33,913 nt of DNA, taken from assembly GCA_028821785.1 (NCBI GenBank), contig JAPKFC010000014.1:1-33913 (forward strand). The letters are read 5' to 3'. This document shows, in pieces, positions 1-30,744 of this stretch. The DNA is from Candidatus Poseidoniaceae archaeon. GTDB lineage: Archaea; Thermoplasmatota; Poseidoniia; Poseidoniales; Poseidoniaceae. Numbering within the stretch: position 1 is the first letter of the stretch; every line of letters starts with the position of its first letter. The notes under the pieces were generated by a model, which saw nothing but the letters and a program-made list of their open reading frames with translations, searched no databases and was not told the DNA's origin. The translations under genes and the position numbers were made by a program.

Positions 1-960
1 ATATGTATCTAACTTAGCTCGGCAATTATTAGTACCAAACACAGCTTGACAATCGTCATCTTGTTGTGGATAAGTCAATTCTGCAACTACTTTACGAATG
101 GTATTTCCTGCATCTCGGTCATAAGAAATTTTGACATCAAAGTCAAGTTCAACACCCTTTCCGGAAGTATTTCCTCCCATCTCAAAGTCTGACCATTTAG
201 CAGCATAAGAGACATAGATTTTGATTGTATCAGAATCAACTAAGCCTTGGCTATTTACTATGTTCAATTTTACTTCGTATTCGCCCGGTTGAACATCATT
301 CCAACTTACCGACACACCGCTCAAATCGACATCATTTTCAGCATCCCCGTCATTATCAGCATCAACATTTAGATCTAAGTCCCAATCATAATCTGGAATA
401 TATTCGTTAGGATCTCCTGCATCTGAATTAGATGCATCTAGTGAGATAGTCGTTGTTTCTGATACATCTCTATCAGATTGACTTTTATCGTAATGACACA
501 TCCACACTACTATTTTTGTGGCTTCATCGATTTCATTGTCTTCGCAATCCTCAGCGTCATTATACTGAGTGATTTCGGCTATTGGTGCGACTGCTGTTGC
601 ATCAACAATGGTTAAATTTCTAACCTGTTCTGAAGTTCCAAATCCATCTGAAATTGTCAATATTACCATTTTTATTCCGGCTGAATCATAAGACCATTCG
701 GCGGTCTTTCCTGTTTTATCTACCGAGGAGTCGCCATCAAAATCCCAACGGTATGTCAAACTTCCATCGGCCGGAGTTGAACTACTGGCATCAAACGAGA
801 CAGAATCACCGACTCTGATATTTTCATTGCTTGATGAAAAACTGAAAACTGCAAATAGTTCACCTGAAGAGGTGCTTTCTTCCTCAAAAATACAGCCTGA
901 TAAACCGACTAATAACATCATGAAAGCCATCAAAACTGGGCCAAATTGTAACTTCATCAT
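1..960 (-). CDS. PKD-domain lipoprotein, C-terminus missing
   Basis: The reading frame is open from an ATG at 960 to the window edge (320 codons, no stop), so the 3' part is missing. The first 23 residues form a lipoprotein signal: a hydrophobic stretch ending in LSGC, with Cys23 the likely lipidated residue, followed by acidic residues. Residues about 32-115 resemble a PKD domain, with the typical YRWDFDGD core, and a second Ig-like stretch with DYDWDLDLN follows. Many Asp/Asn/Ser residues suit a surface protein of a marine archaeon. A second ATG at 957 is an equally good start. The gene lies 49 nt downstream of polB on the same strand and could be co-transcribed with it. PKD domains usually mediate extracellular binding; the ligand cannot be told. 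Confidence 0.8.
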   Translation of the reverse strand, partial: MMKLQFGPVLMAFMMLLVGLSGCIFEEESTSSGELFAVFSFSSSNENIRVGDSVSFDASSSTPADGSLTYRWDFDGDSSVDKTGKTAEWSYDSAGIKMVILTISDGFGTSEQVRNLTIVDATAVAPIAEITQYNDAEDCEDNEIDEATKIVVWMCHYDKSQSDRDVSETTTISLDASNSDAGDPNEYIPDYDWDLDLNVDADNDGDAENDVDLSGVSVSWNDVQPGEYEVKLNIVNSQGLVDSDTIKIYVSYAAKWSDFEMGGNTSGKGVELDFDVKISYDRDAGNTIRKVVAELTYPQQDDDCQAVFGTNNCRAKLDTY

Positions 961-1009
961 TTACTTGCTAAGCCTGCTGTTTGAAAAGCCCTTCCTTCCC
1001 AAGTACGCT

Positions 1010-3664
1010 TTAGAAGGAGAATAGTGAGGTTTGGCGGTTACCCGCGACTAATTCTTTGGCACTCCAGCCAAATGCCTCGGTAATTCTGCCGATTGCAGCT
1101 GCAGTTCGTTCTGCATAGAATATCTCATCATACCCGCTAATGCCACCATTTTCTTCACCCTCAAGCCATGGCTCTACATTCATTGGCCTATTACTAGCAT
1201 CACTTACAATATAAGCAACTTTCATACCAGGAGTAAATCCAAGACCCTTTTCTATCAAAGCGCGAGCGATTCTAACTTGTGCCATAGAATCTGGATTTGC
1301 ATAATGTTTAGTAAAATCGATAGAGCCATCTTTATTCAATTTTCCTTTACACGATTTTGAAAGCACTAATTCTGAAGCATCGACTTGTTTGTTTTTTACC
1401 GCTTGAACTCTGCTTAATGCGTATTGTACCAACTCCTCACCCTCATCGGCTAGAGCGAAATTAAACATTTGTTTCATCGTATCTCGCAGGTAAGAAAATG
1501 TATCTGTCCTTTGAGTTTCATAGCCCCGAATTAACATTTCTTCACTCGGCCAAACCACTTGACCAACGTATCTTTTCTTAGCACCATGGCTAAAAAATAC
1601 AGATAAGCCTTTTTCAAATTCTAATACTGCTGAATCTTTGCTAAAGCGTTGCGCTATGTCTAATCCAAAGGTGATCATTGCTTGTTTTGCATTATTCCAA
1701 TTTTCAATCTCCGCTTCGGTTGAATCTTCTTTCAAAACTGAAATTGCGTTTTCATCAACCGGTGAACGAACAAATATTGAATCGGTATCGGAATAGACTA
1801 CTGAATGTTCTTCTTCTTCTAAACTGGCGATTATCGCTTTGATATTATGACGCGCCCATGCGGTAATTGATGAACCTAAATCGCGATGAGTAAAACGATA
1901 AAATCCTGATGCGAAAACTCCGTAAAAAGAATTCATTAGAATCTTTACCGCATATTGCATAGAGTCATGAAATTGTAAGGCCTTGTCATCTTGATTGGCT
2001 TTAGCGGCCACCATACCCGCTTTATGTTCATCTCTTTGCGCCATTAAATCTTCTAATAACAACGGAACTAATCCTTTACGATTATCTTGATGAAGGAATT
2101 TTGCACCGGTGGGTGCAGTATGAATCAAGTCACCTTCTAAAGGTTGAATGTCTTGATTGGAGTCAATTCTTGTGGTATAGCATATATTGTGGCCGATCAT
2201 AATTGAAGGATACATACTTTTGAAATCCAGCACCGCTATCCATGGATGTAAACCCGCTTCAACATCGTGAACATATCCACCTGTAATTTGACCTTCTTTG
2301 GCATCTGCTGAACCAGTTAATGGTATTGCAACATTCTTTGAATCGGCTAAACGAATAACCAAGGAATCGATTAACTGACTTGTGCTACCATTGGCAGCGG
2401 TGTCAAAATTAACCTTAGCAACACTGGCAACCGCTTCCTTACGGCGAATTACTTGTATTGCGTTTAGAATATCTAATGGTAAAGCTGCATCTCTGATACA
2501 ATATTCAAGAACTTCATCTGGCCGATTAGCCCATTCAACATCCATATTTGATGCATCAATATCCATTTTATGGCGTTCATCATCATCTGGAAATAATAAC
2601 TTTGAGACAAAACTTAGAGTTTCTCTTTGTGGCTTGAGTGCAATTCTTGCTTGCCACCAACAATCAACTATTGCTCTCCCTGCTAGATTCCAAGCACGGT
2701 TGGATTGCCGTTTCGGCATTAGCCCTGTTCTAGTTCGCTTCAACTCCGATTCAATTTGAGGAACTCTTCCCCAGCCTAATAATTGGGCTCTTTTTCTCCA
2801 TTCTATTTTCTTGGCTAATACTTCAGTTCTCTCAAATAGCCGTGGTAAATCAAAATTGTCAATATTGTAGCCGGTAATAATATCTGGATCATTTGCTCTA
2901 ACTACAAGAGTCATCTGTTCAAGAATATGAGACTCTTTGCCAACGAATGTGAATTGTTGCCGCGTACCATCTTGCATATTTTCAATCCAAGCAGCACCAC
3001 ATAGTACAGTATTGTGAGCAATGCTGGTCTCTAAATCAAATGAAAAGACCTTGAAGGGGACAGGGAATGGTTCTGCTGCTATCAAATTGGATAGATTACA
3101 ACTAACTGTAATATCAACCGGATACCGGCCAACTCCACCCGCTTCAATTACCGCATTCATTCGGCTACCATCTTCATCATCAGCACTTCTTTCATCGATT
3201 AATTGTCCTTCAACAGAAACATGCATTCCTAAATCCAAATCCAAAAATATTCGATTCAAATAAGGAATATCTCCTGAAAAAATACTCCAGCCTTGCTGTT
3301 GTAATTTTTTGCGTAACTGGGGAACGAGGTATGGTTGTTTGACTTCTATTTGCCAAGTTGGCCTCATACCCAAGTCTGTTAATTTCATTACAGGGCCTTT
3401 ACAACTGACAATATCTGCGTGCGCCTCCAGACTACGAAGTCTATTTACGAGGTATTCAGGTAAGTCTTCTTCTTCATCCAATGGCGCCAAACTCGCCACT
3501 TCAAAAGTTGGCGAAAGGCCCTCTATTAGCAAACAAATAGATTGTCCAGTTTTACTGCGACCAAATAACTCTATCACTGTCCGGGGGATTGTTTGGCCAT
3601 CCTCTACAACCTCAGTGGAATGATAACGGCCACTGATAATTCCGATGTCGCCGTGCCAGGTCAT
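1010..3664 (-). CDS. polB: family B DNA polymerase
   Basis: Replicative-type DNA polymerase with 3'-5' exonuclease, about 884 residues, the usual archaeal PolB length without intein. Exonuclease motifs are visible: FDLETS near residue 206, YNIDNFDLPRL, and YCIRDAAL. Polymerase motifs follow in order: DFKSMYPSI near 478, KILMNSFYG near 570, YSDTDSIF near 621 (the two catalytic Asp), and KKRY. The C-terminus ends RQTSLFSF, which looks like a PCNA-interacting peptide (Q-x-x-L-x-x-F). The frame opens at 3703, but I prefer the ATG at 3664 because GGGGGAG lies three bases upstream, and the extra 13 residues do not look like a polymerase N-terminus. It is divergent from the aminotransferase gene. 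Marine Group II also uses a family D polymerase, not visible here, so the division of labour is open. Confidence 0.96.
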   Translation of the reverse strand: MTWHGDIGIISGRYHSTEVVEDGQTIPRTVIELFGRSKTGQSICLLIEGLSPTFEVASLAPLDEEEDLPEYLVNRLRSLEAHADIVSCKGPVMKLTDLGMRPTWQIEVKQPYLVPQLRKKLQQQGWSIFSGDIPYLNRIFLDLDLGMHVSVEGQLIDERSADDEDGSRMNAVIEAGGVGRYPVDITVSCNLSNLIAAEPFPVPFKVFSFDLETSIAHNTVLCGAAWIENMQDGTRQQFTFVGKESHILEQMTLVVRANDPDIITGYNIDNFDLPRLFERTEVLAKKIEWRKRAQLLGWGRVPQIESELKRTRTGLMPKRQSNRAWNLAGRAIVDCWWQARIALKPQRETLSFVSKLLFPDDDERHKMDIDASNMDVEWANRPDEVLEYCIRDAALPLDILNAIQVIRRKEAVASVAKVNFDTAANGSTSQLIDSLVIRLADSKNVAIPLTGSADAKEGQITGGYVHDVEAGLHPWIAVLDFKSMYPSIMIGHNICYTTRIDSNQDIQPLEGDLIHTAPTGAKFLHQDNRKGLVPLLLEDLMAQRDEHKAGMVAAKANQDDKALQFHDSMQYAVKILMNSFYGVFASGFYRFTHRDLGSSITAWARHNIKAIIASLEEEEHSVVYSDTDSIFVRSPVDENAISVLKEDSTEAEIENWNNAKQAMITFGLDIAQRFSKDSAVLEFEKGLSVFFSHGAKKRYVGQVVWPSEEMLIRGYETQRTDTFSYLRDTMKQMFNFALADEGEELVQYALSRVQAVKNKQVDASELVLSKSCKGKLNKDGSIDFTKHYANPDSMAQVRIARALIEKGLGFTPGMKVAYIVSDASNRPMNVEPWLEGEENGGISGYDEIFYAERTAAAIGRITEAFGWSAKELVAGNRQTSLFSF

Positions 3665-12670: not shown

Positions 12671-12809
12671 GTATAGTGATATTTGCTGTTAGCGCGCGGT
12701 GACTTCTTATGATAGGCCACTGTCCTCTTTCATGCTCTTAGGAGCAAATGGGATGTACGGCCGCTTCGGCGGTAGGCGAATTTCGCCAAAAAAACGAGGA
12801 GGAAGAGAG
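12671..12809 (+). promoter_or_regulatory. xerA: putative promoter and hairpin-rich leader of xerA
   Basis: GTATAGTGATATTT at 12671-12684 is a TATA-like element that would start transcription near 12700. The 110 or so bases that follow contain three consecutive perfect hairpins: TGCTC-TTAG-GAGCA (12733-12746), CCGC-TTCG-GCGG (12761-12772, a UUCG tetraloop) and GGCGAA-T-TTCGCC (12775-12787). They are followed by the strong ribosome-binding site GAGGAGG (12796-12802) and the ATG at 12810. The frame is open back to a GTG at 12699, so this stretch could instead encode an N-terminal extension. Confidence 0.4.
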
Positions 12810-13883
12810 ATGCGGTCACGCAAAGCAATAAGACCAAGCCAACTAAGGCTTGATGCTGAATCTCTTAGCCTTCCAACCCGATTAATTCACTTACAAGACC
12901 TAGATTGGATCAGTTGTTATCAACAGCAATTACGTACCGAAAATAAGTCTGAAAATACTCGACGCAATTATATGTGTCATCTTAGAAGTTTAATCGAAAC
13001 TACATTGCCTGGAGAACAGGTATTATCACAGCATGATTATGATTTTATGACAATTCTTGAATTGGCTTCACGAATGGAGCCATTGAATGGCAGAATAGAC
13101 CGTTGGTCTCATTCTCAAGCCGATTTAAGACCTACAACTTTCAATGCCAAACTCGCTGCTGCAAAGCATTTATTGAAGTGGACTGGTCAAATTTGGCCTG
13201 ACCATATTGGAAGAGTAAAGACTGGTAAGAGACTGCCTAGAGTATTATCTCGTAGCGAATTATCAATGGTATTGGAAGCCTCACGGTTGAGTGAAAATGC
13301 TGTTGCTTCAATTGTTGTTGTTATGCTATTAGACACCGGCATGAGAGTGAGTGAGATCTGTAATCTGGATATTGGTGATATCGATTTTGCCGATGGCTCT
13401 GCTAGAGTTAGAGAAGGAAAGGGCGATAAAGACCGACTCGTATTATTCACAGATAGAACACTGGAACGAATCAAAGCCTGGTTGCCGGTAAGAAATGAAA
13501 GAGCCGCTACAGATGAATTAGCATTCTTACTCAATACTCGTTGCAGAAGATTACAACCTCGTGGTGTTCAAAGACTGATGGATGACTTGGCTGTTGAAGC
13601 ATCTATCCCTAAAGGAAAACTAACACCCCATGTATTGAGACATAACTTTGCTACCGGTTTGCTTGAAAGAGGGGCTGATTTGGTTTCTATTCAACGATTA
13701 CTGGGCCATTCCAGCATAGCAACTACTAGGAATTACTTGGAGATTTCAGACCAAACACTGCGCGAAGTATACCATCGCGCTCAAGCAACTCGTAAAACAA
13801 TTGAAGCTGAAGCTGCACAACAGCAACATGATGTTGAGGAATTAATTGAAACAACGCCTTCTACCAGTTCACTGGGAATTTGA
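12810..13883 (+). CDS. xerA: tyrosine recombinase XerA-type
   Basis: Site-specific tyrosine recombinase, 357 residues, probably the archaeal chromosome-dimer resolvase acting at a dif-like site. The N-terminal SAM-like core-binding domain includes NTRRNYMCHLRSLIE. The catalytic domain has the full set: Arg179 in DTGMRVSEI, Lys204 in EGKGDKDRLV, His274 and Arg277 in HVLRHNFATG, His300 in LLGHSSIATT and Tyr309 in RNYLEI. The tail is Gln/Glu/Ser/Thr-rich. ATG 12810 is chosen because GAGGAGG lies seven bases upstream; the frame is open to a GTG at 12699. A phage or integrative-element integrase is possible in principle, but no other mobile genes, attachment repeats or tRNA lie next to it. It converges, one base apart, on a small minus-strand gene. 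Confidence 0.93.
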   Translation: MRSRKAIRPSQLRLDAESLSLPTRLIHLQDLDWISCYQQQLRTENKSENTRRNYMCHLRSLIETTLPGEQVLSQHDYDFMTILELASRMEPLNGRIDRWSHSQADLRPTTFNAKLAAAKHLLKWTGQIWPDHIGRVKTGKRLPRVLSRSELSMVLEASRLSENAVASIVVVMLLDTGMRVSEICNLDIGDIDFADGSARVREGKGDKDRLVLFTDRTLERIKAWLPVRNERAATDELAFLLNTRCRRLQPRGVQRLMDDLAVEASIPKGKLTPHVLRHNFATGLLERGADLVSIQRLLGHSSIATTRNYLEISDQTLREVYHRAQATRKTIEAEAAQQQHDVEELIETTPSTSSLGI

Positions 13884-22588: not shown

Positions 22589-23578
22589 ATGATTGCTGAA
22601 GACACTGTTTTCTCTGTGCTATATGATAAGTTCATGTTTTGGTCAGACATCGTAGGAATAATCACCTTTGGTGTATTATTTTACTTGATTTTACGCTACC
22701 GTGCTAAACCTGGTTCGGAGAAATTTAATCCCGACCACATTGAAGTTGGAGCGTTTCCGGTCGACAGACATAATACTCGCCTAGAAATCGCATTTTATGT
22801 CGTTCCAACAATACTTATTGTTTGGCTGACTGTACTTGCAACATCCTCTAGTTCTACCGTTTGGAATATCCCTGCTGATGAAGTCTCATTTGATGTTGAT
22901 GTTGTTGGCAAACAATGGTTCTGGGAATTTGATTATGTTGAGGAATTGACTTGGGAAGATGATTCAAGGATAACCCATGTCAACGTTGAATGGCAAGACG
23001 GTTCAACCACTCTTGCTATCGATACTCTGGGCTCTTCGGCTGTTAATGCCACTGTTGTTCAAGATGGAGAAGCAACCGACTATGCAATTGACCTAGAATC
23101 TAATTCTACTAGTATTGCCCTTACAAGTGATTATTCGCTTTATCAAAGCGTCAAAGTAACCGATGCTGATGGAAATCTGCTTCACACATGGGAACATTTG
23201 CCTGTCGGCCATCAACTTTCAACCGCTGCTAGTGAACATTTGGTTATTCCATGTGATGAAGATATTGTTCTAACTTTATTCTCAAGACCTCATGACGAGT
23301 CAAATACTGTATATGCTGGAGTTCAACACGCTTTCTGGCTCCCAGAATGGGGTGCAAAAGAAGATCTTGTACCTGGTCTAGAAGGTGGAACTGTGATGAC
23401 TTTCGAACCTGACAGAGTTGGGACATTTGATATTAGATGCGCTGAATTCTGTGGTTTAAGTCACTCTAAAATGGTAGGCTACATTGACATTGTCGCTAGA
23501 GATGGCGAAACGTGTGACGAAGATGTCGGAATACAACTGACTTCAGACTCTGAAGGTTCAAGTGGAGGTGAGCATTGA
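22589..23578 (+). CDS. coxB: cytochrome c oxidase subunit II with enlarged CuA domain
   Basis: 329 residues. Two membrane helices (about 12-32 and 68-88) are followed by the extracellular CuA domain. The CuA ligands are all present: His247 in GVQHAFWLPEWG, Cys284, Glu286, Cys288, His292 and Met295 in CAEFCGLSHSKM; the aromatic entry patch is KQWFWEFDY near 108-116. Between that patch and the next conserved strand (EHLVIPCDED near 216) there are about 100 residues, where most subunits II have about 15-50. The additional part is Thr/Ser/Asp-rich and beta-like. The protein receives electrons from a soluble or membrane donor and passes them to subunit I. AAGGTGG precedes ATG 22589. The stop overlaps the coxA start (TGATG). 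Confidence 0.96.
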   Translation: MIAEDTVFSVLYDKFMFWSDIVGIITFGVLFYLILRYRAKPGSEKFNPDHIEVGAFPVDRHNTRLEIAFYVVPTILIVWLTVLATSSSSTVWNIPADEVSFDVDVVGKQWFWEFDYVEELTWEDDSRITHVNVEWQDGSTTLAIDTLGSSAVNATVVQDGEATDYAIDLESNSTSIALTSDYSLYQSVKVTDADGNLLHTWEHLPVGHQLSTAASEHLVIPCDEDIVLTLFSRPHDESNTVYAGVQHAFWLPEWGAKEDLVPGLEGGTVMTFEPDRVGTFDIRCAEFCGLSHSKMVGYIDIVARDGETCDEDVGIQLTSDSEGSSGGEH

Positions 23579-25872
23579 TGCGAACAAGAGCAATAGTACT
23601 ACTTGGCCTGGTAATGGTTTCATTGATTGCAATACCATCCTATACCGCAATGCCGGGTGGAATTGGAAGTCAAGCCGATAGCGGATGTACTTGTCACGGA
23701 GGCGCATCTTCAAGCACACAAGTGTTGGTTGATGGACTCCCGAGTATATTCAATGCAAGTGAAACTTATTCATTTACTGTAACAGTTGTCAATGATGATT
23801 TGACAAGAGTCGCCGATGATAACGGTAGAATGGGTGGTTTTAGAATCATCTCCAATGGTGGAACTGTTTCTTCAATCAATGAGACTTTGTCTCATGAAAT
23901 GGATGGAGCACTAACTCATACAGTTGAAGCAAATACTGTCCGTCAATGGGAATTTGAATGGACTGCTCCTGCTGATTCAGAGGCTGTAGTTGATTTCACT
24001 ATTTATGGAAACGCAGTTAATGGCGGAGACGGCTCTGGTGGCGATGAATGGAATGAATTCACCATGACGAGCATGGGTATTGATGCTGGCGCAGTAGCAC
24101 CTGCAGCACGTTCTTTAGTAGTCCTAGTCACTTCTATTGGACTTTCATTAGGCCTAGTCCTCGTTGGATTGATGTGGGTCTTTTACAACCGTTCTCCTGA
24201 AACTTTCAGCGTTAATCGATTCTTTGCTTACATCATACCATGGCTAACAACAACAGATCACAAACAAGTTGGAATTCTATACTTCTTGTTTGGTTTCACA
24301 TTCTTCCTTGTTGGAGGAGTGCTAGCACTTCTATTCCGCATTCAATTGGCTTTGCCAGAAAACAATTTCTTGACTGAAGCAGAATACAATTCATTCTTTA
24401 CTTTACATGGTACAACAATGATTTTCTTAGCGGCTATGCCGATGATTGCTGGATTCATGAATTATGTCTTACCTCTACAAATTGGAGCTAAGGATTTGGC
24501 ATTCCCAAGAATCAATGCAATGGGATTGTGGCTACTCGTATTTTCTGCACCACTAATTTACGCTGGTATTTGGACTGGTGATGCTGCCGATATCACATGG
24601 GTAATGTATCCACCATATTCCTCTTTGACCGCTGGCGCTCTTGGAGAATCGATGTCACAGTATGGCTCAAGTGTTGGAACTACTGCTTTCATCGCCGGTA
24701 TGGCTATGCTCGGTGCTTCTTCAACGCTCAGTGGTGTTAACTTCATCACAACCGTATTCACTATGCGAGCAAAAGGTGTTGACTGGATGAAGATGCCATT
24801 GTTCACATGGTCGGTATTCGTATCTGTTTTCATGCTCTATATGTCACTCCCAGCATTCGTTATCGGAGTTTTCTTCTTATTGTTCGACCACACTATTGGA
24901 ACTGTATTCTTCACCAGTGGTGGAGACCCACTACTATTCCAACACCTGTTCTGGTTCTTCGGACACCCCGAGGTATACGTTGTCATAGTACCTGCTTTCG
25001 GAATTGTTTCTGAAGTCTTAGCAACTTCGGCAAGGCGTTCTATTTTCGGTTACAAATCAATGGTCATCGCGATGGCTGGAATCGGTGTCGTAGGTTTCAT
25101 TGTGTGGGGACACCACATGCTAACATCTGGTATGGACCCGATGTGGAGAGGTATTTTCATGATCACAACAATGGCTGTTGCAATTCCTACTGGTGCTAAG
25201 ATATTCAATTGGTTAGCAACGCTATGGGGAGGTTCATTGGTGATGAAGGCTCATACATTGTGGGCACTCGGATTCCTAATCACATTCACTCTCGGTGGAA
25301 TTTCTGGTATGTTCTTACCTGTTTCAGGACTTGATACCCACTTCCACGATTCTTACTATGTAGTTGCTCACTTCCATTATGTGTTCATCGGTGGTACTGT
25401 CTTCGCACTCTTTTCAGGATTATACTATTGGTTCCCTAAGGTAACCGGTAAGAAGTTGGATGAAACTCTTGGAATGTGGCACTTCCTCATTGGATTCATC
25501 TCATATAACGCTACATTTTGGCCAATGCATGCACTTGGAATAATGGGGATGCCTCGTAGAACTCACTCCTATACCATGGAGAGTGGCTTTGCCGAATATA
25601 ACATGGTAATATCCATCTTTGCCATAATCTTTGGACTAAGTCAATTGATTCTAGTATGGAATCTAATTCGCTCTTCACGACATGGAGAACCTTGTGGAAA
25701 GGATCCATGGGGTGGATGGTCACTCGAATGGTCAACTACCTCTCCTCCACCTACACCTTCATTCGACGTCAACCCGATTCAGGGAGATATGAACGTTGAA
25801 TTCGGCCACCATTCAGAAACCAGTCTCGGCGATAAGTTGTGGACTGCTAAGAAAAAGGAGGTGGATGTATGA
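23578..25872 (+). CDS. coxA: cytochrome c oxidase subunit I with secreted N-terminal domain
   Basis: 764 residues, about 215 more than usual. Order: signal peptide (1-25); an extracellular beta-rich domain (about 26-175) with SGCTCHGG at 35-42; a membrane helix (about 180-203); and a complete subunit I from about 212. In the oxidase part the heme and CuB ligands are visible: FFTLHGTTMIF, WFFGHPEVYVVIVP (His-Tyr crosslink pair), VWGHHMLTSGMD and VAHFHYVFIGG. GAKDLAFPRIN and IPTGAKIFNW hold the D- and K-channel residues, and the HPEVY glutamate marks an A1-type aa3 enzyme. The N-terminal domain resembles Reeler/choice-of-anchor modules, but its motif is C-x-C-H, one residue short of a heme c site. 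GGAGGTGA precedes the start. Confidence 0.95.
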   Translation: MRTRAIVLLGLVMVSLIAIPSYTAMPGGIGSQADSGCTCHGGASSSTQVLVDGLPSIFNASETYSFTVTVVNDDLTRVADDNGRMGGFRIISNGGTVSSINETLSHEMDGALTHTVEANTVRQWEFEWTAPADSEAVVDFTIYGNAVNGGDGSGGDEWNEFTMTSMGIDAGAVAPAARSLVVLVTSIGLSLGLVLVGLMWVFYNRSPETFSVNRFFAYIIPWLTTTDHKQVGILYFLFGFTFFLVGGVLALLFRIQLALPENNFLTEAEYNSFFTLHGTTMIFLAAMPMIAGFMNYVLPLQIGAKDLAFPRINAMGLWLLVFSAPLIYAGIWTGDAADITWVMYPPYSSLTAGALGESMSQYGSSVGTTAFIAGMAMLGASSTLSGVNFITTVFTMRAKGVDWMKMPLFTWSVFVSVFMLYMSLPAFVIGVFFLLFDHTIGTVFFTSGGDPLLFQHLFWFFGHPEVYVVIVPAFGIVSEVLATSARRSIFGYKSMVIAMAGIGVVGFIVWGHHMLTSGMDPMWRGIFMITTMAVAIPTGAKIFNWLATLWGGSLVMKAHTLWALGFLITFTLGGISGMFLPVSGLDTHFHDSYYVVAHFHYVFIGGTVFALFSGLYYWFPKVTGKKLDETLGMWHFLIGFISYNATFWPMHALGIMGMPRRTHSYTMESGFAEYNMVISIFAIIFGLSQLILVWNLIRSSRHGEPCGKDPWGGWSLEWSTTSPPPTPSFDVNPIQGDMNVEFGHHSETSLGDKLWTAKKKEVDV

Positions 25873-27227
25873 GCGGTCACGGAGCGGATATAGAAAATTC
25901 AATTTGGGTACGCGCTTTACTATTTGCTGGAGGATTCCTTACTTTCGGAATTATTGCTTTCAGTATTCTCGGTATTGCACTGGCTGGACCTGCTCATGAC
26001 GAGTACATGGATGCGGTTGAGCACTACCATCACGCTGAAGATGATTACAAGGAATCTGTTGCTGCTGGGCATTCTGTTGAAGGCGATCACCACGATGAAT
26101 TATACTTAGAAATGGAAAAGGCACACCATCATGAAGTGGATGCACATTTATCTTACCTCAATTGGAAGGTTTCTGGAAATACGATATTGGTAATGAGTAT
26201 TATTTTCGCTTCATTCATTGGAATTGCCGGTTTGATTAATTCACTACGAGTAGATGTTGAACACAGTGATGACGAACATGAACATCACGGCTCTGCTTCA
26301 CCGATTATTTTCACCTTTGGTATCATGCTATTCATGATGGGATTCCCTGGTTTTTCAAATACTATTACCGAACTGCTAACAGGAACAGATGCAGTAATTG
26401 GTGAAATGTTAATCGGTGTAACCGGACTACTAATCATCATCATAGGTGTAGGAAATTGGTGGTGGGAAGATTTACCATTCAATGGACATGGAGAACAAAT
26501 CGCTACTTCTGCACCGTTTGAAGGTGAACACATTCGCAAGGCTGGTATTTGGATCTTCATTATGTCTGAAATAATGATTTTCGCAACTTTCTTCTCATCA
26601 TACCTACGTATGCGTACTGGATGGTGTACAAAGTGGGCATGGGACAATGATATGTGTGCTTCCGATGCTACAGGCTATGATATCATGACCGCTTCTGATT
26701 ATTTGAGGCCAGGTGGTGCAAGTGGCACTGGAGACTTCTGGACAATGCTTCCGGGAGGAATCAATACATTTGCCCTAATTATTTCGTCTTACACTATTGT
26801 CATTGCTCTAAAGACTGCAAAGGCACATGATTGGAGTCGCCCTGATAATTTCATTACCAAGTTTATTCCACAACCAATAATGAAAATTGTTTTCCCTGAC
26901 CAAAAGAGAACTGTTAGAAACTTCTTGTTCGCAACCCTACTACTAGGTTCACTGTTCATCATATTGAAATTGGTTGAGTGGTCTCATTTGGTTGCTGAAG
27001 GATTTACTGTTAGTACATCTCAAGCAGGTTCGATATTCTATATCGCAACTGGAGCACACGGATTGCACGTCTTCATTGGACTGCTCATCATGATCTATCT
27101 TGTCTTCAAAGCTGACACTGTTGGCTATGACAAGGAAAATGCACAGGGGATTGAGTACTTTGGATTGTACTGGCACTTTGTCGATTTGGCTTGGGTACTA
27201 ATTTTCCCAGCATTCTATTTGTATTGA
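25869..27227 (+). CDS. coxC: cytochrome c oxidase subunit III with His-rich extension
   Basis: 452 residues, about twice the usual five-helix form. The canonical part starts near 217: HIRKAGIWIFIMSEIMIFAT, then NTFALIISSYTIVIALK, IILKLVEWSHL, GAHGLHVFIGLLIMI and YWHFVDLAWVLIFPAFY. The N-terminal 215 residues add about four membrane helices. The loop after the first helix (43-98, predicted outside) contains 11 His in about 56 residues, with clusters YHHAEDDY, GDHHDEL and KAHHHEVDAH. A second cluster, EHSDDEHEHHGS, follows helix two. These could bind copper or zinc. The ATG overlaps the coxA stop (ATGA) and is preceded by GGAGGTG, so translation is coupled. Subunit III normally stabilises the catalytic core and proton uptake. 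Confidence 0.93.
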   Translation: MSGHGADIENSIWVRALLFAGGFLTFGIIAFSILGIALAGPAHDEYMDAVEHYHHAEDDYKESVAAGHSVEGDHHDELYLEMEKAHHHEVDAHLSYLNWKVSGNTILVMSIIFASFIGIAGLINSLRVDVEHSDDEHEHHGSASPIIFTFGIMLFMMGFPGFSNTITELLTGTDAVIGEMLIGVTGLLIIIIGVGNWWWEDLPFNGHGEQIATSAPFEGEHIRKAGIWIFIMSEIMIFATFFSSYLRMRTGWCTKWAWDNDMCASDATGYDIMTASDYLRPGGASGTGDFWTMLPGGINTFALIISSYTIVIALKTAKAHDWSRPDNFITKFIPQPIMKIVFPDQKRTVRNFLFATLLLGSLFIILKLVEWSHLVAEGFTVSTSQAGSIFYIATGAHGLHVFIGLLIMIYLVFKADTVGYDKENAQGIEYFGLYWHFVDLAWVLIFPAFYLY

Positions 27228-27237
27228 GGTGAAGATA

Positions 27238-27624
27238 ATGAGCGAACATGCAGTAACTGGATTAGAAAAGTGGCTTAAAGATAATACTGGAATGGACATC
27301 TATTTCTGGAATTTTCTTGTATTGATGTTTTTCACATTATTTGAAATCGGAGCAGTATTCTTTGACACAATACCTGGGACGGAGATCAGGGTCACATTGA
27401 TGATGGTTTGGGCAGTTCTAATCGTTGTTGGAATCATCAAAGGATATGGCATTGCTGCATATTTTATGCACTTGAAAGGGGATCCAGGCATCTATTTTAG
27501 AACTGCAATGTTCCCAGTATTATTCGTATTATTGATGATTTTCGGAATTGGCCTATCAAACCCAGATGGTGTTGATGGACTTCCTTCATGGTGCACTCCT
27601 AACTGGGATTACGCTACTCGTTAA
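27238..27624 (+). CDS. cytochrome c oxidase subunit IV-like small membrane protein
   Basis: 128 residues with three membrane helices (NFLVLMFFTLFEIGAVFF, VTLMMVWAVLIVVGIIKGY, AMFPVLFVLLMIFGIGL) and the AAYFMHLKGD motif that marks the bacterial/archaeal COX4/CyoD-like subunit family, which assists assembly of the CuB site in related oxidases. GAGGTGA precedes ATG 27238. The gene lies 10 bases after coxC and is clearly part of the operon. The C-terminus (SWCTPNWDYATR) carries one Cys. Confidence 0.87.
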   Translation: MSEHAVTGLEKWLKDNTGMDIYFWNFLVLMFFTLFEIGAVFFDTIPGTEIRVTLMMVWAVLIVVGIIKGYGIAAYFMHLKGDPGIYFRTAMFPVLFVLLMIFGIGLSNPDGVDGLPSWCTPNWDYATR

Positions 27625-27675
27625 GCGAAGTAATAGTGAACAACTGTTAACAACAGCCTTCAAACCCCTTTGGTC

Positions 27676-29016
27676 ATGAACAGTAGATTTGTCATTGCGG
27701 TTACGCTAGTAGCGTGCTTATTGATTTCTTCTATCCCTACTGCTTCAGCATACAAAGGACATGTTTTAGGCCGAACCGCTGTTGATGATTTCGTATTAGT
27801 AGACGATCATTCAGAAAATCGTTCTCTTTACACTCTGCAAGGCGACCTCTTGATAGTTTCATTCATCTTTACAAGATGTACATCTGTGTGCCCAGTTATT
27901 ACTCAAAATCTAAAATCGGTGCAAGCGGGACTTTCATCTGATATTGCCGATGATGTTAGTATTATTTCCATTACAGTAGACCCTGCATATGACACACCTG
28001 AAGTTCTCCATGATTACGCGCACATTCATGATGTAAATTGGCCACACCTTACTGGTTCTGAAGAGAGTTTACAAACGGTTTGGGATTCCTTTGGTGTTGT
28101 TGTTGCTAAAGAGGTAATCGATGCTCATGTATCAATTAATTCTAGTCAGGGAATGGAAAATCAAGTTTCAATTCTTTACCCCGACAATACTACAATGTTG
28201 CTCGATGGACACACACAAACGCTACCTTCAGAAAATGCAACGGGATGGAATTTAACGGAATCAACAATGGAAATGCACAATGTATCGCTCAACTATTCCG
28301 TCCATGAAACGTGGGGAACTTCTGTAAATGGAATCGACAATGTTGATGCTCCTTCCGATTCATCTTGGTGGTGGGCTCTATACCTTTGGAATGGAACTAA
28401 TTCATCTTGGCAAGAAAGTCCAATTGGAATTGATTCTGTAATGTTGGGCCAAGATACAGACCATATCGCTTGGGCTGCATCAAATTCTAACCTTTCATAT
28501 CTACCGATTCCCGGTAGTGAAATGATCTGCCATGACCCTACAACTAACATGACTACAAATCATAGCCAGCAAGTCAACTGTGAAAATTCTGGGAACATGT
28601 GGATGAACCAAACAAATCAACAGCATAGCGATGAAGGTGAAATTGCTAAATGCGGTGGCCATGGCTGGGAAATGGGTCAAGGTGAAGGTAAACATTGCAT
28701 GTGTGATGATGGATTCGAATGGGCAGATGGAGACAAGTTATCCTGTGAGGGAGCAACTCCAGCGGATCAATTTGAAGTTGGTCATTCAACGATAACCTAT
28801 ATTCTAGACAATGAACGGAAACCACGCATTGCTTGGATTGGAGATGATTGGCATGTTGAAGATTTTATTGCCGATGTTGAAGAGTTATACAGTTCTGAAA
28901 ACGATTTACCAGAAAAACCTGGAATGCCTGGGTTTGGTGTTGCCATGGCAATCTCAGCACTTGGCTTGACAGCAATTGCAATAAATGTCCGTTCATCCGA
29001 TGAGGATGAAGAGTGA
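27676..29016 (+). CDS. Sco1/SenC-type copper chaperone with large insertion
   Basis: 446 residues. A signal peptide (1-26) is followed by a thioredoxin-like Sco domain. The copper ligands are Cys68 and Cys72 in FTRCTSVCPVI and His370 in GHSTITYILD; ISITVDPAYDTPEVL lies between. In ordinary Sco proteins the Cys pair and the His are about 90 residues apart; here the distance is about 300. The insertion (roughly 150-362) has many N-x-S/T sites, a Trp-rich WWWALYLWNGTNSSW segment and a final Cys-rich stretch (KCGGHGWEMG to CMCDDGFEWADGD) that looks EGF-like. The C-terminus has MPGFGVAMA and a hydrophobic helix, similar to a PGF-CTERM anchor but with an acidic end. It lies 51 bases after the subunit IV gene and probably loads CuA in subunit II. 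Confidence 0.9.
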   Translation: MNSRFVIAVTLVACLLISSIPTASAYKGHVLGRTAVDDFVLVDDHSENRSLYTLQGDLLIVSFIFTRCTSVCPVITQNLKSVQAGLSSDIADDVSIISITVDPAYDTPEVLHDYAHIHDVNWPHLTGSEESLQTVWDSFGVVVAKEVIDAHVSINSSQGMENQVSILYPDNTTMLLDGHTQTLPSENATGWNLTESTMEMHNVSLNYSVHETWGTSVNGIDNVDAPSDSSWWWALYLWNGTNSSWQESPIGIDSVMLGQDTDHIAWAASNSNLSYLPIPGSEMICHDPTTNMTTNHSQQVNCENSGNMWMNQTNQQHSDEGEIAKCGGHGWEMGQGEGKHCMCDDGFEWADGDKLSCEGATPADQFEVGHSTITYILDNERKPRIAWIGDDWHVEDFIADVEELYSSENDLPEKPGMPGFGVAMAISALGLTAIAINVRSSDEDEE

Positions 29017-29256: not shown

Positions 29257-30744
29257 ATGCGCAGAGGTCTTGTTGCCCTATCTCTTTTCGCCCTCATGGT
29301 CTTGGCTGGTTGTTTGTCTTCAACAACTGCTGGATGGGGAGTGGGCGATGGTGAAGTGAAAGTTGATTTTTCAACTGAATCTACATCTGCTACAAGTTCT
29401 CTAGGCGATGAAAAAATATCCTTTGATGAACTGTTACCTGTCGGTTGTAATGATACTCGAGTCCTTGACAATGGAGGCAATCCGATTAAATTCACCGGAT
29501 ATATGGCTGCAAGCCACTTCTACGAAACTCATGACTCACTAAACGGAGCAAAGGACCTTGATCTTGCTGTAACTGCTTCAGTTGCAATAAAATCAATGAG
29601 TATGAAAGAAGCTACGAATGTTGAGGGGGAGCAAATTCCACGCGTTCAAGTAAAGAATTGGAATTTACCTTTGTATCCAGAGACTGGTGCTGGAAATATT
29701 GACCTCGATGAAGTTGATATGGATTCAAGTTCAAAATGGTTTGTTCTAGGACTCATCCCAACAACTGAAAATATTCTTTACGGAATGCAGGCACTTGGAG
29801 AATGGCATCAACCTATACAAATAGAAGGATACCTTGTTGACACAAACAAAACAATGTCGGCTGGATATTACTCCTCATACCATGAAGTAAACGATAACTG
29901 TGAGATGGAGATTGGCCAGAACAATATAGAATCAGTTTACTTGATGGTAACTTCGATTAAATTTCAAGATTCAGTTGTTACTTCAAGCGGAGATTCTTCT
30001 GATGAATGGGTTTTGGGAGATGTCCCATTCCTAGGCCGTGGCGGTTTCATCATGTTCTTCTTAATCTTCGGAATCGGTGGCGCTGTTACTATGTTCATAT
30101 TCTCCAAGATTGCAGTTGCAAAAGGTGCATCTCATTCGATGGAAATATTGGTCGGAAAGAAAGCGATGGCTGCAGTTTCTAGAGTTAAATCTGATATTAA
30201 ACAAGCAAGGTCCTCGGGGATGAAAAGTTCAAAACAACGCAATGCTGAAGCACGAAAAGATGCTTCTATTGAGGCTAAAAAGGAAGGTGTAAAACCTGCT
30301 AAGAGAGAAACTGCTGATTCGGACAGCCTGACTGGATTTGATTTGGATAGTGCTTTACAATCTGGACCTAGTGAATCAACTACTTCTGAATTTGGCTCTA
30401 AGGGTTCAAGCGTAGTAGCAACTACTGAAGCAAAAAATATTGATTCTCAAGTCACTTCAATTCCGAGAAGTGTATCACAGCAAAGTAGCCCTGTTACTTC
30501 TACAGTGCCTACCGCTCAGTCTTCTGTAATCTCCAATACTGATCCAGCTCCGAGTAAGCGTTCGCACTTCTCATCATCCATTTCTGGAAGTTCTAAGCCT
30601 CAACAACAACCTAAAAAGAAGGTTGTCAAGAAACGCGCAACCAAGAAAGTGCAACAACCTGAAGTTGAACCTTGGACTGAAAATAAACAAGAAACTACTA
30701 ATTCTTCTGAAGAAGAGGAAGAGTTCTCTGACTTCTCCTTTTGA
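29257..30744 (+). CDS. lipoprotein with membrane helix and long cytoplasmic tail
   Basis: 495 residues. The N-terminal signal has a lipobox (LMVLAGC, Cys at about residue 19). An extracellular region of about 240 residues follows. A membrane helix (GFIMFFLIFGIGGAVTMFIF, near residue 265) is followed by a basic juxtamembrane segment. The cytoplasmic tail of about 210 residues is Ser/Thr/Gln/Lys-rich and looks disordered, with KPQQQPKKKVVKKRATKK and an acidic end (EEEEEFSDFSF). Both a lipid-modified N-terminus and a membrane helix in one protein are unusual; the signal could be cleaved normally instead. I recognise no enzyme domain. It lies downstream of tRNA-Ser and converges, six bases apart, on the lipid-kinase family gene. 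Confidence 0.82.
   Translation: MRRGLVALSLFALMVLAGCLSSTTAGWGVGDGEVKVDFSTESTSATSSLGDEKISFDELLPVGCNDTRVLDNGGNPIKFTGYMAASHFYETHDSLNGAKDLDLAVTASVAIKSMSMKEATNVEGEQIPRVQVKNWNLPLYPETGAGNIDLDEVDMDSSSKWFVLGLIPTTENILYGMQALGEWHQPIQIEGYLVDTNKTMSAGYYSSYHEVNDNCEMEIGQNNIESVYLMVTSIKFQDSVVTSSGDSSDEWVLGDVPFLGRGGFIMFFLIFGIGGAVTMFIFSKIAVAKGASHSMEILVGKKAMAAVSRVKSDIKQARSSGMKSSKQRNAEARKDASIEAKKEGVKPAKRETADSDSLTGFDLDSALQSGPSESTTSEFGSKGSSVVATTEAKNIDSQVTSIPRSVSQQSSPVTSTVPTAQSSVISNTDPAPSKRSHFSSSISGSSKPQQQPKKKVVKKRATKKVQQPEVEPWTENKQETTNSSEEEEEFSDFSF

Follow-up and report, generated by a model that had tools for sequence, protein, structure and literature searches.

The cytochrome oxidase operon

The window analysed here is a 33,913-nt contig (JAPKFC010000014.1) of a Candidatus Poseidoniaceae archaeon, and its source genome is a metagenome-assembled genome (MAG) of 1.82 Mb rated 86% complete. 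In the list of open reading frames (ORFs) of the window, coxB, coxA, coxC, coxD and sco are adjacent and all on the plus strand, and their products match, in operon order, the Pfam families COX2, COX1, COX3, COX4_pro and SCO1-SenC (Table 1). CoxB also matches TIGR02866 (E-value 4.1e-33) with a score under the cut-off of that model, and the TIGR02891 match to the core of CoxA, residues 223–734, scores slightly below the cut-off of that model. CoxB carries the CuA motifs HAFWLP at residue 247 and CAEFCGLSHSKM at residue 284, CoxA the motifs HGTTM, HPEVY, GHHML, DTHFHDSYY and HFHYV, and Sco CTSVC at residue 70 and GHSTITY at residue 371; we take all of these to be metal-ligand motifs. By its COX1 ligand motifs, the CuA site of subunit II and the presence of subunit III, the enzyme is an A-family heme-copper cytochrome c oxidase. 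The ORF positions, Pfam matches and motifs thus bear out the preliminary description of this DNA as a five-gene oxidase operon with intact ligands. The start of coxA is more likely the ATG at 23578 than the TTG at 23575, because GGAGGTGA lies directly upstream of the ATG. The product of the conserved gene downstream of sco gave no Pfam match; by eye, its N-terminus is lipoprotein-like.

Table 1. Genes and protein features of the oxidase locus, in window coordinates.
Feature	Position	Strand	Basis
coxB, cytochrome c oxidase subunit II	22589..23578	+	PF00116 5.1e-10; CuA motifs intact
CoxB insert, ~residues 116-214, between WFWEF strand and CuA ligand region	22934..23230	+	length comparison
coxA, subunit I with fused N-terminal domain	23578..25872	+	PF00115 4.8e-143
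Fused choice-of-anchor V / reeler-like domain of CoxA, ~residues 26-173 (putative heme-c electron input)	23650..24093	+	NF041895 8.7e-23; model fold
Cys38-Thr-Cys40-His41 of CoxA, proposed heme attachment and proximal ligand	23686..23697	+	motif conservation
His115 of CoxA, candidate distal ligand	23917..23919	+	column conservation
Extra transmembrane helix of CoxA, ~residues 183-205, from outer domain to COX1 core	24121..24189	+	hydropathy peak 186-204
coxC, subunit III	25869..27227	+	PF00510 7.8e-19
CoxC N-terminal extension, His-rich, variable	residues 1 to ~135 of coxC (25869..27227)	+	His positions; f2 alignment start
coxD, subunit IV	27229..27624	+	PF03626 3.4e-09
sco, copper chaperone	27670..29016	+	PF02630 1.9e-25 over residues 40-149
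Sco insert, large, variable, ~residues 150-365	28117..28764	+	between PF02630 match and GHSTITY
Downstream gene, conserved, function unassigned	29257..30744	+	homologues after sco in most f1 loci

Additions to CoxB, CoxC and Sco

The additions were compared across 80 loci around coxA genes from relatives, many of which are MAGs. In a separate list of 80 relatives, the titles name Candidatus Poseidoniales or Poseidoniaceae, Poseidonia, and Euryarchaeota or Thermoplasmatota MAGs, many of them Marine Group II (MGII), which agrees with the origin assumed in the preliminary description. Loci L040–L114 were selected since their CoxA match reached the N-terminus, and L115–L119 are second oxidases; the window together with L040–L113 makes up the set of first-type operons (n = 75).

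In the window CoxB, 132 residues separate the WFWEF strand from the CuA His region, against 60–65 in three relatives of genus g9, and residues 110–244 gave no Pfam match. Among the 75 first-type operons, CoxB is 310–350 aa long in 38 of 38 loci of family f1 outside g9, 235–260 aa in all three g9 loci and 213–293 aa in all 34 loci of family f2. The f1 insert lies at a position that we take to be near the cytochrome c docking face and may therefore be a later adaptation there. Family f2 lacks both this insert and the long N-terminus of CoxC; in 34 of 34 f2 loci CoxC aligns only from window residue 132–149 onward. Hydropathy places hydrophobic segments of CoxC at 144–162 and 176–194, leading into NWWWED and the HIRKAG helix, and these two segments are presumably the ordinary COX3 helices I–II. 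The extension probably consists of two extra helices and a His-rich loop. The additions on four proteins that had been described are thus real, but the one on CoxC is probably smaller than the four-helix His-rich extension first proposed.

In Sco of the window, 296 residues lie between CxxxC and the C-terminal His, and among relatives this distance runs from 121 to 491 residues at the loci measurable by motif pattern. Only 8 of the 34 f2 loci have a Sco match after the operon; of these, L082 and L101 end at contig edges. Genus g9 lacks the CoxB insert yet has a long Sco insert in two of its three loci, namely the two in which Sco is covered.

The preliminary description had the additions of CoxA, CoxB, CoxC and Sco packing together as one outer cap, and the f1 loci outside g9 do combine all four. 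The CoxA domain is, however, kept in f2 and g9, which have neither the CoxB insert nor the long CoxC N-terminus. The additions vary separately, since g9 retains a long Sco insert while lacking that of CoxB, and since lengths and Sco adjacency differ by family. Mutual independence across relatives is among the findings that the preliminary description itself named as refuting. In view of the 75 operons, such a cap appears very improbable, and we read the additions of CoxB, CoxC and Sco as lineage-specific elaborations rather than parts of a shared structure.

The N-terminal domain of CoxA

The COX1 core of CoxA is preceded by ∼220 residues, and CoxA residues 18–161 match the choice-of-anchor V model NF041895 with an E-value of 8.7e-23 and 81 bits against a cut-off of 42. 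To our knowledge, this family is named only from its sorting anchor and has been assigned neither a function nor heme binding; the term “choice-of-anchor V” was not found in the open-access papers searched. The related model NF041894 (MXAN_6652 family) matches three sister proteins, well under its cut-off. Bacterial anchor-V members, which may carry CXXCH, were sought on plasmids, and none was found; they form no part of the evidence. CoxA gave no match to viral contigs.

Full CoxA matches, starting at or before query residue 8 and spanning at least 655 residues, were seen in 119 of 145 genomes of the order. Another 12 genomes have partial matches only (fragments or contig-edge pieces, one with internal stops and one beginning at residue 32). 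In the remaining 14 the matches are weak, with a best E-value of 3.2e-30 or worse, and cannot be the COX1 core. Second oxidases that start at the core and lack the fused domain occur inside the order in G077 (contig C6) and G117 (contig C14). The domain is fused to CoxA in six of six genomes of f3, a family of the same class, and, outside the class, in two oxidases of one genome (G167). The genomes G145, G164, G193, G203 and G254 contain anchor-V genes, and their CoxA is unfused and starts at the core. In G147 (L317) the pairing takes a split form, with a further CoxA that lacks the fusion and, directly after it, a separate anchor-V gene whose ORF touches that of CoxA. G145 has the domain in other redox contexts as well, one with 4Fe-4S and NrfD genes and one with cupredoxin and multicopper oxidase genes. 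The domain was also seen on very large surface-like proteins without an evident respiratory role.

A conserved Cys-x-Cys-His motif

All 85 ORFs that CoxA matched, 81 CoxA proteins and four stand-alone neighbours, contain GCxCH. When the window and 325 loci were searched with a profile built from motif-bearing sequences, 223 distinct domains were obtained, a set in which Poseidoniales CoxA is overweighted. All 223 carry C-Xn-CH close to their start (217 with n = 1 and two each with n = 2, 3 and 4). In the profile alignment, every one of the 223 rows has the second Cys and the His, and 221 have the first Cys. Further along the domain, a His that corresponds to His115 of the window protein is found in 205 of the 223, several of the misses being one-column alignment shifts; in L036, L256 and L268 this candidate distal His is replaced by Gln. 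Such a combination, CH invariant and the Cys spacing variable, would be expected of heme c attachment more than of a metal site.

The window domain has CTCH and not the canonical CXXCH of c-type cytochromes, and we know of no heme-attachment motif as short as CXCH. Searches of the open-access literature for “CXCH motif”, “CX1CH” and “Cys-X-Cys-His” returned no report, plain CXCH was absent from the papers listed by a further search, and searches on Marine Group II or Poseidoniales cytochromes gave no title on such an oxidase domain among the matches listed. In one open-access report with the phrase “fused to subunit I”, subunit III was what was meant.

Sister anchor-V protein of the bc operon

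The bc operon of the source genome encodes a further anchor-V protein, a small membrane protein, a protein with a Rieske motif, cytochrome b (PF00033, 1.5e-41) and a protein of 937 aa in which 4Fe-4S and CCG domains were matched. The Rieske protein is named from its CTHLCC...CICHSS motif and had no Pfam match at 0.001. All 60 order genomes searched have a bc-type anchor-V match at E ≤ 1e-25, and 58 have one at E ≤ 2.7e-69; in G048 and G054 the only match is near 1e-26 and perhaps represents a paralogue. A Rieske-motif gene is found beside the bc-type gene in 30 of the 30 best-scoring loci (28 from f1 and two from f2), 26 of them scored by motif pattern and four by reading. The same arrangement recurs in f3 (L319, L320).

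In a tree of 120 domains, the rows labelled as oxidase and as bc separate with a single change (support 83/85, 98% of 200 bootstrap trees). As 53 rows are ungrouped, the labels come from simple patterns that leave some true CoxA rows ungrouped, and several long branches are flagged, we take the tree only as consistent with an oxidase/bc split. According to an earlier report, cytochrome b and Rieske proteins occur in most MGII, but a canonical bc1 complex does not (PMC6336850), so that cytochrome c1 would be a missing part.

Cytochrome c maturation and cytochrome c families

Matches to PF01578 (CcmF/CcmC) were found in 60 of 60 order genomes, and CcmE in 32 of 40, the other eight giving none. 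The source genome encodes an 856-aa CcmF and, beside an ABC ATPase, CcmC, both with NCBIfam matches, and a CcmE that contains CPSKY near its end. With CcmF, CcmC and CcmE matched in the source genome and in relatives, a c-type maturation system is present.

The cytochrome c family PF13442 was matched in none of the 60 order genomes (7 of 14 controls positive) and PF00034 in one, G045 (8 of 14 controls positive); neither was matched in the source genome. Other proteins, e.g., multiheme cytochromes, could serve as Ccm substrates, the families searched being PF13442 and PF00034.

We also compared anchor-V and PF01578 matches outside the class. Of 293 genomes in the phylum, apparently 193 belong to this set, the listing having left out 145 rows that had no match. 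Without correction for kinship, and at a threshold set post hoc, PF01578 is present in 10 of 10 genomes with an anchor-V match at E ≤ 2.5e-14 versus 27 of 183 others. At E ≤ 0.001 the counts, likewise uncorrected for kinship, are 20 of 28 versus 17 of 165, and eight genomes with weak anchor-V matches lack PF01578. A possible link in f2 between CcmF and an anchor-V gene of ∼900 aa was dismissed as synteny only, the two lying ∼8–9 kb apart with unrelated genes between them (four genomes).

Predicted fold of the domain

A model of the domain was built from 53 sequences (pTM 0.81, mean pLDDT 81.9); model residues 9–16, at the motif, have pLDDT below 50 and are its least certain part. The best Foldseek matches were F-spondin reelers (E-value 4.4e-6), and cytochrome f was not among the best 50 listed. 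VIA-align scored an F-spondin reeler at Z 10.0, cytochrome f of several species at Z 8.9–9.5 (alignments of 130–141 residues that begin at model residue 1) and cohesins at Z 9.0–8.9, aligned only from residue 22 or 23, so the reeler, cytochrome f and cohesin scores lie within about 1 Z of each other. The copper-binding protein YcnI was also among the fold matches (Z ∼7). For a second model, of a 50% identical relative (pTM 0.72, residues 1–16 least certain), the scores were 8.2 for a lipoprotein, 7.7 for cytochrome f (rank 2) and 7.6 for a reeler, values that by the program's own guidance may reflect nothing beyond a shared arrangement. A comparison with cytochrome f had been proposed before the domain model was built. 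A likeness among modelled beta-sandwiches is by itself no indication of function.

Of eight diverse members of the family, six matched the Pfam Reeler model (PF02014) at E ≤ 10, the best at 1.2e-7, and the window domain scored 17.2 bits against a cut-off of 21; this supports a kinship of the domain with reelers. Apocytochrome f was not matched by Pfam in the eight members at E ≤ 10, nor was it seen in a PDB sequence search. Another PDB search, with the window domain as sole query, brought no useful match (best E-value 0.63).

Interpretation

We observed the fusion, the conservation of the motif, the operon positions, the Ccm genes, the absence of the two main cytochrome c families and the similarity of the model folds. 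From these, it is probable that the N-terminal domain of CoxA is a cytochrome-c-like heme electron-input domain of the choice-of-anchor V (reeler-fold) family that is built into the oxidase. We also lean, with somewhat less assurance, toward a broader reading in which ordinary respiratory cytochromes c have been replaced, in Poseidoniales and their class-mates, by a reeler/cytochrome-f-like family with heme at Cys-x-Cys-His, acting both as the cytochrome c1 or f of the bc complex and as the built-in domain of CoxA.

Heme binding, the attachment chemistry, the ligands and the electron path are what we infer, as follows. A signal peptide would export the N-terminal domain of CoxA, and Ccm would attach heme to Cys-x-Cys-His on the outside. 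The added helix would then bring the chain back to the cytoplasm, where the ordinary COX1 core follows. The sister protein in the Rieske/cytochrome b operon would have the role of cytochrome c1 or f. Electrons might pass from quinol through cytochrome b/Rieske to the bc-type anchor-V protein, perhaps on to a mobile anchor-V protein or halocyanin, and then through the CoxA anchor-V domain to CuA, heme a and the oxygen site; the bc-type protein could thus reduce the CoxA domain either directly or via a mobile carrier.

A changed electron input had already been suggested, with blue-copper proteins in place of a conventional cytochrome c, and the idea finds support in another form, as the CoxA domain looks like a built-in carrier. 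Blue-copper proteins do occur, PF00127 being matched in 53 of 60 order genomes; none was found in the source MAG. Halocyanin is reported to be highly transcribed in one family (PMC9723583), and halocyanin-type donors to the oxidase are possible.

The domain might instead bind or relay copper, Cys-x-Cys-His and the later His either loading CuA or accepting electrons from halocyanin. A copper site could well be formed by two Cys and two His, and the cupredoxins of the 53 genomes, the fold match to YcnI and the cupredoxin and multicopper oxidase neighbours in G145 would all fit. Yet the domain also stands in bc and NrfD/4Fe-4S operons, where no copper enzyme was seen, and a Cys spacing that varies from 1 to 4 around an invariant CH suits heme over a fixed copper site. 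Since copper binding would also leave Ccm without a recognised substrate, we regard this explanation as quite improbable. Conservation of CH in 223 of 223 domains likewise argues against the view that the domain is a cofactor-free reeler module for adhesion, docking or assembly, in which Cys-x-Cys-His is structural or redox-sensing. That view would accommodate the Pfam Reeler matches in six of eight members, the F-spondin reeler as top fold match and the large surface-like proteins that bear the domain. It would not readily account for the recurrent placement at quinol-oxidising and oxygen-reducing complexes, nor for Ccm genes without a recognised substrate in the PF13442 and PF00034 searches, and we consider it unlikely, though less so than the copper site.

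If the domain is indeed a heme-bearing electron input, it would stand in for the cytochrome c apparently absent from Poseidoniales and account for the retained cytochrome c maturation genes. The c-type cytochromes would gain a heme-attachment motif and a fold, genome surveys based on CXXCH would overlook cytochromes, and a domain named solely after its anchors would acquire a testable function. It would also explain how the bc complex is linked to oxygen in abundant surface-ocean archaea from which cytochrome b and Rieske proteins are reported but no canonical bc1 (PMC6336850).

Comparison with known systems

The core subunits and ligand motifs are those of an A-family aa3-type oxidase (coxB-A-C-D), from which the present enzyme differs in the outer domain and extra helix of subunit I, the insert of subunit II and the extended subunit III. 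Its CoxA domain scores over the cut-off of the choice-of-anchor V model NF041895, and three sister proteins score well under that of NF041894. The reeler family PF02014 is both a sequence match in six of eight members and the top fold match, with the window domain under the cut-off; a CXCH motif is not known to us from animal reelers.

In caa3-type oxidases a cytochrome c is fused to subunit II, and the likeness lies in an oxidase that bears its own putative heme-c electron-input domain. Here, however, it is subunit I that bears the domain, at its N-terminus; the predicted structure is mostly beta and the motif CXCH, whereas the class I cytochrome c of caa3 is helical and has CXXCH. The window CoxB matched no cytochrome c family, Pfam giving only COX2 and a weak FixQ match.

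Cytochrome f, in which the N-terminal amine is a heme ligand, differs from the anchor-V domain in having CXXCH instead of CXCH, and no sequence match between the two was seen in the Pfam and PDB searches. The domain may share the beta-sandwich of cytochrome f, its model aligning at Z up to 9.5 and about equally well with reelers and cohesins, and it likewise has an N-terminal Cys motif. The bc-type protein further resembles cytochrome f in its C-terminal membrane anchor and in its position beside Rieske and cytochrome b.

Neighborhood of the Oxidase Genes

The Sco insert contains a cysteine-rich stretch which, judged by eye from its sequence, looks EGF-like, and over which a Pfam search at 0.01 gave no match. 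The gene that comes after sco in most loci of family f1 also has homologs in several loci of family f2. Elsewhere, the window carries a tyrosine recombinase gene of the phage-integrase family (PF00589, 5.1e-37).

Features in the window and in other loci
Feature	Location	Details
Cys-rich stretch within Sco insert	window 28528-28746	Cys 287, 304, 328, 343, 345, 359
Gene after sco in most f1 loci	window 29257-30744	
Tyrosine recombinase gene	window 12699-13883	
937-aa protein	L135:11872-14682 (G000:C61)	bc operon, downstream of cytochrome b
Anchor-V gene clusters	L285:7785-11049 and 210-3444 (G145)	redox neighbors
Anchor-V membrane protein	L136:7997-8950 (G000:C57)	
Anchor-V gene	L299:6646-7814 (G167)	DUF420 gene opposite

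bc Operon and Cupredoxin Genes

The 4Fe-4S and CCG (HdrD/GlpC-like) domains of the 937-aa bc-operon protein lie in its second half, preceded by a stretch with no domain assignment. The protein possibly joins a C-terminal half of cytochrome b to an iron-sulfur module. In 10 genomes (G002, G053, G020, G022, G010, G012, G001, G028, G048, and G054) the contig that carries the CcmF match also has a small cupredoxin match, the two lying ∼1.4–2.5 kb apart when their positions are compared by eye.

Anchor-V Domains in Other Settings

Large surface-like proteins with an N-terminal anchor-V domain are encoded in L146, L148, L152, L162 and by further long ORFs. Their motif is CXCH, CXXCH or CX4CH, some have RCC1-like or PKD-like repeats (judged by eye), and a respiratory role is not evident for them.

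In G145, ORFs for a 4Fe-4S protein, NrfD and an anchor-V protein touch in an operon-like arrangement, and genes for a cupredoxin, another anchor-V protein and a multicopper oxidase lie in the vicinity. The L136 gene has a TatC-like gene (assigned by eye) on one side and, on the other, the gene for the beta subunit of NAD(P) transhydrogenase (PF02233); the L136 protein has Gln in place of the candidate distal His. In G167, the anchor-V gene is faced on the opposite strand by a gene (PF04238, 4.7e-22) of the DUF420 family, which is found near oxidase genes.
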